From assembly GCA_016839055.1 (NCBI GenBank), contig JAEKNX010000007.1:1-64000 (forward strand): DNA of 64,000 nt. The letters are read 5' to 3'. Numbering within the stretch: position 1 is the first letter of the stretch; every line of letters starts with the position of its first letter. Below, one piece after another: positions 2,866 through 46,850 of the stretch. The notes beneath the pieces were generated by a model, which was not told where the DNA came from, searched no databases, and was given only the letters and a program-made list of their open reading frames with translations. This DNA is from Spirochaetales bacterium (GTDB lineage: Bacteria; Spirochaetota; Spirochaetia; UBA9216). Made by a program: the position numbers and the translations under genes.

Positions 2866-3011
2866 AAAATTTTCCACATTAAAATAGGCTGAAATCAAAC
2901 TCGACAAAATTCATCGGCTATCGATGCCAGTATCGACGCCTTTATTATATAAACCCAGAAGCTTTATTTGGAAGGTGGACGACATAAGCTCTCCATATGC
3001 AGCTATATACA

Positions 3012-3097
3012 GCAGTATATGGACGACATAAGCCTACGCACTGAGTTGAGGGGCTAGTGGGCGCAAGCTCGTGGAGGTTCAAGTCCTCTTTGCTGCA
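3012..3097 (+). pseudogene. tRNA-Leu(GAG)-like sequence, probably defective
   Basis: The 3' half is an excellent class II tRNA. It has an anticodon loop TTGAGGG (GAG), a leucine-type variable arm (GGGC GCAA GCTC), a T arm (GGAGG TTCAAGT CCTCT) and an acceptor strand TTGCTGC with discriminator A. CCA is not encoded. The 5' acceptor GCAGTAT pairs with it in six of seven positions, one of them a wobble pair, and the length of 86 nt is right for tRNA-Leu. However, the D arm lacks the GG pair and a proper stem, and the anticodon stem is mispaired in at least two positions. The 5' half looks replaced by a local repeat. I therefore call it a tRNA remnant or chimera rather than a working gene. An intrinsic terminator follows directly. 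Confidence 0.5.
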
Positions 3098-3273
3098 TTA
3101 AAAAAGGATTATCGCATTGGCGGTAATCCTTTTTTATTTCTGGATAATGCGGACTTGAAGAGAAGCCGCCGCCGAGCGATTGCGAGGATGAGCGGACAGG
3201 ACGTCCGCGAAAGGCGGCGGAGCCGGGTCGGGGGGTGGCGACATGATGTCGACGCCGAGGAGACCAAGTCCTC
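3087..3273 (+). repeat. 187-bp direct repeat, copy 1
   Basis: This copy matches 3469-3655 at a constant offset of 382 with three substitutions (positions 3219, 3220 and 3260). It begins inside the tRNA-like acceptor region (TCTTTGCTGCA), includes the terminator hairpin at 3100-3135, and continues into a GC-rich module. That module opens with GGACTTG and closes with CAAGTCC, so its ends are inverted repeats of each other and resemble the T-loop sequence of the tRNA. Internal palindromes include GCGGAC...GTCCGC and CGACAT...ATGTCG. Confidence 0.9.
3100..3135 (+). terminator. Intrinsic terminator after the tRNA-like sequence
   Basis: Perfect 12-bp stem AAAAAAGGATTA / TAATCCTTTTTT with a 12-nt loop. 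The A-run and T-run make it usable in both directions. It lies 2 nt after the tRNA-like 3' end. Confidence 0.85.
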
Positions 3274-3282
3274 TTTGCTGCA

Positions 3283-3318
3283 AAAAAAAAGATCATCCGT
3301 AAGGATGGTCTTTTTTTT
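3283..3318 (+). terminator. Intrinsic terminator, second unit of the repeat patch
   Basis: Stem GATCATCC / GGATGGTC (one G-T pair) with a GTAA loop, extended by facing runs of eight A and eight T. It directly follows another TTTGCTGCA word (3274-3282), repeating the order of tRNA end and then terminator. Confidence 0.8.
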
Positions 3319-3468
3319 GCTATCAGAGAAAGAGGACTTGATCCGAAGGAAGCGCCGAGCTGGCGAGGGGAAGCTCGTAGGACGCGCGCGGCAGCTTCCG
3401 CAGGCGGCCTGGAAGAGTGAGGCACGATGCCGAGCTCAGAAAGGCAAGGTCCTCGGAGAACCTGCGGT

Positions 3469-3655
3469 TCTTTGCTGCATTAAAAAAGGATTATCGCATT
3501 GGCGGTAATCCTTTTTTATTTCTGGATAATGCGGACTTGAAGAGAAGCCGCCGCCGAGCGATTGCGAGGATGAGCGGACAGGACGTCCGCGAAAGGCGGC
3601 ATAGCCGGGTCGGGGGGTGGCGACATGATGTCGACGCCGAGAAGACCAAGTCCTC
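3469..3655 (+). repeat. 187-bp direct repeat, copy 2
   Basis: This is the second copy of the 3087-3273 repeat, about 98% identical. The CGG-to-CAT difference in the GGCGGCGG arm weakens a potential stem and is not compensated on the other side, so strict conservation of RNA structure is not evident. Both copies start at the TTTGCTGCA word that forms the tRNA acceptor end and end at AAGTCCTC. Confidence 0.9.
3482..3517 (+). terminator. Intrinsic terminator, third unit of the repeat patch
   Basis: Identical copy of the 3100-3135 terminator inside repeat copy 2, again directly after TTTGCTGCA (3471-3479). Confidence 0.85.
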
Positions 3656-3787
3656 GGAGAACCGCAGGACCCGATCCATGCGGAACGAAAACGTGGATTT
3701 CCGCAGCCTCACTGGGGTTAAATTATATGAGCCCAGGCCATAGTGAAATATTATGGCCCCTCTTTTGGAAGTTTCCGGCTTAGGATA

Positions 3788-46606: not shown

Positions 46607-46850
46607 AAATCCTCCTTGGATTTTTCTCCTTTTCAATAATGGAAGGCAGTCTCGTTTCCAATACTACCCGGCGGCCAGACTCCATAGATGCTTTAGCTGC
46701 ATCCTCAGGAGAACAGGCTCGGAGAGTTTATATTATTATAGATCAACAATTTATCTTTGCAATTCTATATTTTAGGTTTTAGAATAATAACACTCTGAAG
46801 TCAGAACCATGCCATAGATCTATGTTATATAACATTATAAGGTGAATGTT

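Follow-up and report, generated by a model that had tools for sequence, protein, structure and literature searches.

A tandem array of three tRNA-linked repeats behind a degenerate tRNA-Leu(GAG) in a spirochaete, with a likely mobile core and ends matched to the local tRNA

Based on a 64,000-nt stretch of DNA from a Spirochaetales bacterium (hereafter the window, meaning the whole stretch) and its comparison with some 150 relatives, we have identified a tandem array of three repeats behind a dead tRNA-Leu(GAG) gene. The array falls within the definition of tRNA-linked repeats (TLRs) and is a spirochaete version of the TLRs known from E. coli. We consider it likely that each repeat specifies a structured RNA made by transcriptional read-through, with a non-autonomous mobile core and ends copied from its target, and that the array has been shaped by unequal exchange. 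The comparison suggests that the core moves between tRNA genes and adopts the end sequence of the local tRNA.

The repeating unit is composed of an inverted copy of the tRNA T-arm, a GC-rich core folding as a three-way junction, a direct copy of tRNA nt 56-73 and a terminator. In the window, the parts are arranged as follows:

3010..3097, + strand: degenerate tRNA-Leu(GAG) pseudogene (alignment to the intact tRNA-Leu(GAG) of G001 and to that of G000:C14; ARAGORN negative)
3080..3097, + strand: tRNA nt 56-73, CAAGTCCTCTTTGCTGCA, the repeated sequence
3098..3142, + strand: terminator A (-21.7 kcal/mol, z -7.2, U run)
3151..3159, + strand: module 1 left end, inverted T-arm copy (inverted-repeat search)
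3158..3264, + strand: module 1 core (match to covariance model R1, 72.5 bits)
3265..3282, + strand: module 1 right end, matching tRNA nt 56-73 exactly (18/18 nt)
3283..3325, + strand: terminator B (-19.5 kcal/mol, z -7.0)
3333..3342, + strand: module 2 left end, inverted T-arm copy (inverted repeats)
3341..3445, + strand: module 2 core, a different core subtype (R1 match, 85.0 bits)
3445..3479, + strand: module 2 right end, interrupted (CAAGGTCCTC, a 15-nt interruption at 3455-3469, then CTTTGCTGCA)
3480..3524, + strand: terminator A', identical to A (folding)
3533..3541, + strand: module 3 left end, inverted T-arm copy (inverted repeats)
3540..3646, + strand: module 3 core, a 98% copy of module 1 (R1 match, 75.6 bits)
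3647..3655, + strand: module 3 right end, truncated to CAAGTCCTC

The word TTTGCTGCA occurs exactly at 3089, 3274 and 3471 and at no further site on the + strand of the window (chance expectation 0.24). Each occurrence is directly followed by a terminator, a long A-stem-U hairpin, and exact search and folding thus agree with the original prediction, which had named these three positions. A direct repeat of 187 nt with 98% identity (3087-3273 and 3469-3655), comprising modules 1 and 3 with terminators, and the inverted ends GGACTTG...CAAGTCC, recovered by inverted-repeat search, had likewise been foreseen. The array has the order A-B-A', module 2 belonging to another subtype than modules 1 and 3, and it stops at 3655, where module 3 has neither the acceptor part nor a terminator of its own. 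The open reading frames crossing the modules are mechanical only, which rules out a protein-coding repeat, and none within the units is integrase-like. Rfam gave no gathering-level match in the window modules; the only such match in the window is a Moco (Molybdenum cofactor) riboswitch at 46610-46736 on the - strand (67.8 bits). After the last module, at 3680-3704, lies a hairpin with CGAAAACGTG in its loop, which comes after the last module in locus L009 as well (~1594-1618) and may be another short core type.

ARAGORN detects no tRNA anywhere in the window, and the region is accordingly not an array of several intact tRNA genes. The tRNA-Leu-like origin that had been assigned to the repeated word holds for the 3' half of the pseudogene, which is nearly perfect when aligned to intact tRNA-Leu(GAG); the gene itself is no longer intact, with decay in the D-arm and in the 5' strand of the anticodon arm. 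A 14-nt direct repeat, TGGACGACATAAGC, is located upstream of and within this decayed 5' half (2976-2989 and 3020-3033). An intact tRNA-Leu(GAG) is present elsewhere in the same genome (G000:C14:1288-1371). This module-free gene has a trailer of ~110 nt that, in two relatives, aligns with the sequence after the right end of the module and not with the sequence after the tRNA gene. Since the trailer follows the right-hand tRNA end, the insert separates the tRNA from the trailer native to it and is bordered by a tRNA 3' end on either side; the case is not fully independent, because the trailers that flank the two tRNA-Leu families also occur as repeats. A trailer-like repeat around CTGACGCCAGTATTGACGCC also occurs upstream of the pseudo-tRNA (2910-2955) and in loci L012, L013, L021 and L145; it recurs downstream of tRNA-Leu genes and, in L012, near a transposase-like gene.

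The anatomy is widespread. A DNA search retrieved related modules at two tRNA-Met loci of the same genome, and relatives within the class carry modules behind Leu, Gly, Met, Arg and Ser tRNAs. The R1 model was built from 16 cores, which had themselves been noticed near tRNAs, with the tRNA-derived ends trimmed off, so that the linkage to tRNA genes became testable on new matches. In the genome of the window, R1 detects 12 modules at 7 loci, among them three in the window, two from C24 and three from C7. All adjoin tRNA genes or tmRNA, with the pseudogene of the window as the exception, and a weak additional fragment lies in a tRNA-Ser cluster. With that cluster left out, 9/44 tRNA genes of this genome are followed, at a distance of no more than 750 nt, by a second copy of their last 18 nt. 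The possibility, raised with the original prediction, that the module occurs only here and nowhere near other tRNA genes is thus strongly contradicted.

Across Spirochaetota, 46/296 genomes contain R1 matches, nearly all of them from the same class and many from a Treponema-like genus; since many of these genomes are metagenome assemblies, array sizes could be wrong. In the working set, 135/157 modules follow a same-strand tRNA or tmRNA that lies at most 1.2 kb upstream, the usual distance to the core being 50-80 nt, and several of the others are cut by contig ends. The host genes comprise about 30 isoacceptors plus tmRNA. Behind tmRNA (L025 on G000:C15, and L061 on a Treponema sp. contig), the module ends are copied from the tRNA-like 3' end of the tmRNA. 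The occurrence of the same anatomy in many independent genomes rules out a unique or artefactual feature. Exact matches to the core pattern in non-spirochaete genomes mostly have no R1 score and were treated as chance. A search of the open-access subset of the literature, which is not proof of absence, returned no description of spirochaete TLRs.

The ends of the modules are specific for the adjacent gene. The right end equals nt 56-73 of the local tRNA exactly in 91/133 modules and with at most two mismatches in 108/133, compared to 1.5% for other tRNAs at the same tolerance. On the left, the end contains nt 56-65 as reverse complement with at most one mismatch in 107/133, compared to 4.1% for other tRNAs. 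By position, tRNA-specific matching of the left end extends from nt 57 to ~65, is weaker to ~71 and fades in the acceptor, with nt 56 and inward positions being non-specific; modules in this test were preselected on nt 56-65, and it is unbiased only at positions outside that stretch. Where the right end fails to match, it is still a copy of the local tRNA that has been truncated or has decayed, none being derived from another one. CCA is present in 0/89 right ends and is missing from the genes as well, so that the copies stem from gene DNA and not from mature tRNA; copying of mature tRNA by reverse transcription is thereby ruled out.

Sister cores in one genome illustrate the same rule. Among the 21 most similar core pairs from the same genome, a small set from few genomes that is not phylogenetically independent, the right end resembles its own tRNA more closely in 42/42 cases and the left end in 38/42. 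This is well exemplified by the modules behind tRNA-Trp and tRNA-Arg(TCG) of genome G259, which share 81% core identity, yet both ends of each match its own gene. Core identity of at least 75% is reached by 11.2% of the pairs at different tRNAs of one genome, against 2.9% of the pairs at the same tRNA across genomes and 0.6% otherwise. Within one genus, some tRNA-Met genes are occupied, some are empty and some retain a remnant tail only, and some relatives carry no insert at the same tRNA. The core is probably mobile; against this reading, the analysis identified no machinery for its movement.

These observations also bear on a purely local explanation, in which cores are inherited vertically, multiply by tandem duplication and unequal exchange without any mobility, and have ends that co-evolve with the neighbouring tRNA. 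Local growth is indeed evident: the window holds the 98% duplicates, terminators alternate as A-B-A-B in L009, terminators have been duplicated together with tRNA ends in L147 and L164, and L010 (1210-1360) contains a chimeric module, an apparent recombinant of two core subtypes. At several loci where terminator and tRNA end are duplicated jointly, tandem duplication alone suffices as an explanation, which counts against our main reading, and gene conversion following arrival could in principle re-establish the match of the ends. We conclude that arrays grow locally by tandem duplication or unequal exchange, and the contribution of unequal exchange that the original prediction had allowed for is apparent in the alternating A-B-A arrays and the chimeric module. 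As the whole account, local duplication is nevertheless quite improbable in our judgement, given that cores resemble each other more between different tRNAs of one genome than at the same tRNA elsewhere, that both ends fit the local tRNA simultaneously at many positions, and that presence varies between congeners.

A mobile core with target-copied ends is also to be distinguished from integrase-type mini-islands. According to this scenario, a tyrosine recombinase supplied in trans would insert small circles, whose attP site contains a tRNA 3' end, at the T-loop, and the old tRNA 3' end would be displaced. The displaced native trailer adjoining the right-hand tRNA end, the boundary at C56 within the T-loop and the tandem accretion of units are all in line with it. 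An integrase, however, is normally confined to one or few tRNAs, whereas a single class of modules spans about 30 isoacceptors plus tmRNA and the ends of sister cores have been re-matched. In addition, the inverted left copy is superfluous in an integrase model and the units contain no integrase-like ORF. We therefore regard mini-islands as very unlikely. The repeated insertion of an element that regenerates a tRNA end, as originally predicted, stands insofar as the trailer is displaced in two relatives and ends are matched at about 30 isoacceptors; its comparison with integrases does not extend to the modules themselves, which encode none.

The fold of the core is a three-way junction that shows strong covariation. 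In RNAalifold analysis of 126 non-redundant modules, P1 is formed by the two tRNA-derived ends, P2 is the 5' domain and P3 the 3' domain. Over 31 pairs, 86% of the cells are paired, compared to 63% after shuffling the 3' partners (maximum of 200 shuffles 64.5%), a control that leaves the relatedness of the modules in place. Compensatory types occur in P1, P2 and P3, with several per pair, and an earlier, smaller alignment had double changes in 16/19 pairs. The excess of G-U over A-C in P3 (41 vs 11) points to the tRNA-sense strand; P2 has no such excess (13 vs 18). Single modules fold only modestly better than their shuffles (z -1.6 to -3.2). Two columns switch between Watson-Crick pairs and tandem G-A, with GA/GA in 35/126 modules. 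C-G closes the hairpin loops, whose sequence is A(N)GGA(N) or ACGAN.

The resemblance of these loops to the CsrA SELEX consensus RUACARGGAUGU (PMC7652899) makes it attractive to consider the modules as CsrA-binding small RNAs, i.e., as decoys comparable to CsrB and E. coli RrB that would titrate the translation regulator CsrA in step with tRNA transcription and would be retained for that reason. GGA lies in C-G-closed loops of P2 in 115/126 modules, of P3 in 89/126 and of either in 122/126, giving the several GGA loop motifs of the CsrB/RsmZ type, and AGGA is found 2.27 times per module compared to 1.32 in shuffles. RrB binds CsrA via loop GGA motifs according to PMC8144298. The presence of csrA in 45/46 module-bearing genomes is uninformative, since the gene is near-universal (267/296 genomes regardless of modules). 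Against a decoy role, a 99% complete genome without detectable csrA (G262) carries five modules (L094, L241, L242) and has kept GGA in 6/8 loops of the four modules read. A share of the P3 loops is of the ACGA type and lacks GGA, the other 19 E. coli TLRs have a CsrA-binding score <0.01 in PMC8144298, and module presence differs between species. Retention as CsrA decoys thus seems unlikely to us. Two modules of G262 have ACGAU in place of AGGAU in the P2 loop.

To account for the array as a mobile core with target-copied ends, we propose the following mechanism. Polymerase reading through the tRNA terminator would transcribe the units, and their RNA would fold with the tRNA-like end closing the structure. 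This end would permit normal tRNA-type 3' trimming, leaving the host tRNA unharmed and releasing a small RNA, as has been measured for E. coli RrB. The core would act as a non-autonomous mobile element: upon its arrival downstream of a tRNA, the DNA of nt 56-73 would be copied directly on one side and inverted on the other, e.g., by fold-back or template-switch synthesis. Arrays might afterwards lengthen or shorten via unequal exchange between direct repeats. That the units persist behind a dead tRNA and are missing from relatives is more readily reconciled with an element that is tolerated than with a function essential to the host. Their retention at a pseudogene and their absence from congeners favour an element that is dispensable and propagates itself.

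The original prediction knew of no named family with this arrangement, and here it has to be amended, since the anatomy is that of the E. coli tRNA-linked repeats as they are described in PMC8144298. According to that text, TLRs go back to Egan & Landy 1978 and Rudd 1999 and are defined by 18-19 bp at their 3' end that repeat the end of the gene upstream without mismatch; E. coli K-12 has 22 copies at ten tRNA or rRNA loci, with one to five per locus, and their function is given as not known. The spirochaete modules lie directly downstream of a tRNA/rRNA-type gene on the same strand (135/157, the gene in the window being the degenerate tRNA-Leu). The 3'-end identity is present as an exact 18 nt in module 1, interrupted in module 2 and truncated in module 3, and tandem copies number three in the window, two at C24 and three at C7. 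Both kinds of repeat follow tRNA/rRNA genes on the same strand in tandem copies with GC-rich hairpins, and both are terminator-flanked (rrnB T1-TLR-T2 in E. coli). We found the TLR anatomy in the E. coli tyrT-tyrV, argV-argQ and rrnB regions. The tyr repeats carry an inverted tRNA-end copy on the left as in spirochaetes and the arg repeats only a partial one; the consulted passages of PMC8144298 make no mention of this left end.

The spirochaete modules differ from those of E. coli in phylum and in core sequence, and a single core type serves about 30 isoacceptors plus tmRNA. Unlike in E. coli, the right end stops at nt 73 without CCA, and the host tRNA in the window is a pseudogene. R1 scores on E. 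coli TLRs are non-significant (5-9.5 bits) and unreliable, because GC-rich hairpins bias the score; although the best R1 matches in six E. coli loci fall in TLRs (E 0.1-1), we do not claim core homology. RtT RNA (RF00391; rttR of tyrT-tyrV) is a TLR subtype bounded by tRNA ends, with the anatomy found in spirochaetes, and a tandem G-A motif has been reported for it (PMC7657543). Identity with RtT is ruled out, since the RF00391 model, which matches 4/4 E. coli copies, has no gathering-score match in the window and none at E<5 in six related loci. RrA, RrB and RrF are TLRs that, according to PMC8144298, become small RNAs by T1 read-through and interact with Hfq and CsrA in vitro; they have a hairpin with an AGGAC loop and, unlike the spirochaete modules, are attached to 5S rRNA. 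Integrative elements that insert at tRNA genes resemble the modules in restoring the tRNA 3' end and leaving behind a displaced copy, yet the modules contain no integrase, measure about 170-190 bp, carry an inverted copy and use many tRNAs.

A core-free search pattern retrieved the same anatomy with another core in 5/19 IMG/VR viral contigs (L224, L226, L230, L232 and L235), most other matches being ordinary tRNA clusters. These arrays consist of tRNA end, terminator, inverted T-arm, hairpin core and tRNA end, with several cores beginning GATCAAATGCAA or similar, and they probably represent a proteobacterial TLR family. A phage-borne spirochaete core is ruled out, as the viral contigs contain no exact match to the core pattern. 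Tentatively, and with rather less than even confidence, TLRs could be viewed as minimal mobile elements found across bacteria, having a folded core without fixed ends and acquiring target-derived ends at each new tRNA or tmRNA gene, with nt 56-73 copied at the DNA level, direct on the right and inverted on the left, by an as yet undescribed insertion mechanism of the fold-back or template-switch kind. Such ends would then be what the unrelated cores of E. coli and of the proteobacterial-like viral-contig copies have in common.

In summary, knowledge of E. coli TLRs dates back to 1978, and they include RtT RNA and the rrnB T1-T2 spacer, with no accepted function or origin. What is new is that TLRs are spread in spirochaetes, that tmRNA also serves as a site, that the inverted left end is general, and that sister cores of a single genome each have ends matched to their own tRNA. 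Two old questions become testable, namely the source of the tRNA-specific ends and the activity of the RNA, e.g., in CsrA binding. With the spirochaete anatomy at ~30 isoacceptors and tmRNA, its covariation and its presence or absence among congeners, what had been a curiosity of one species turns into a class.
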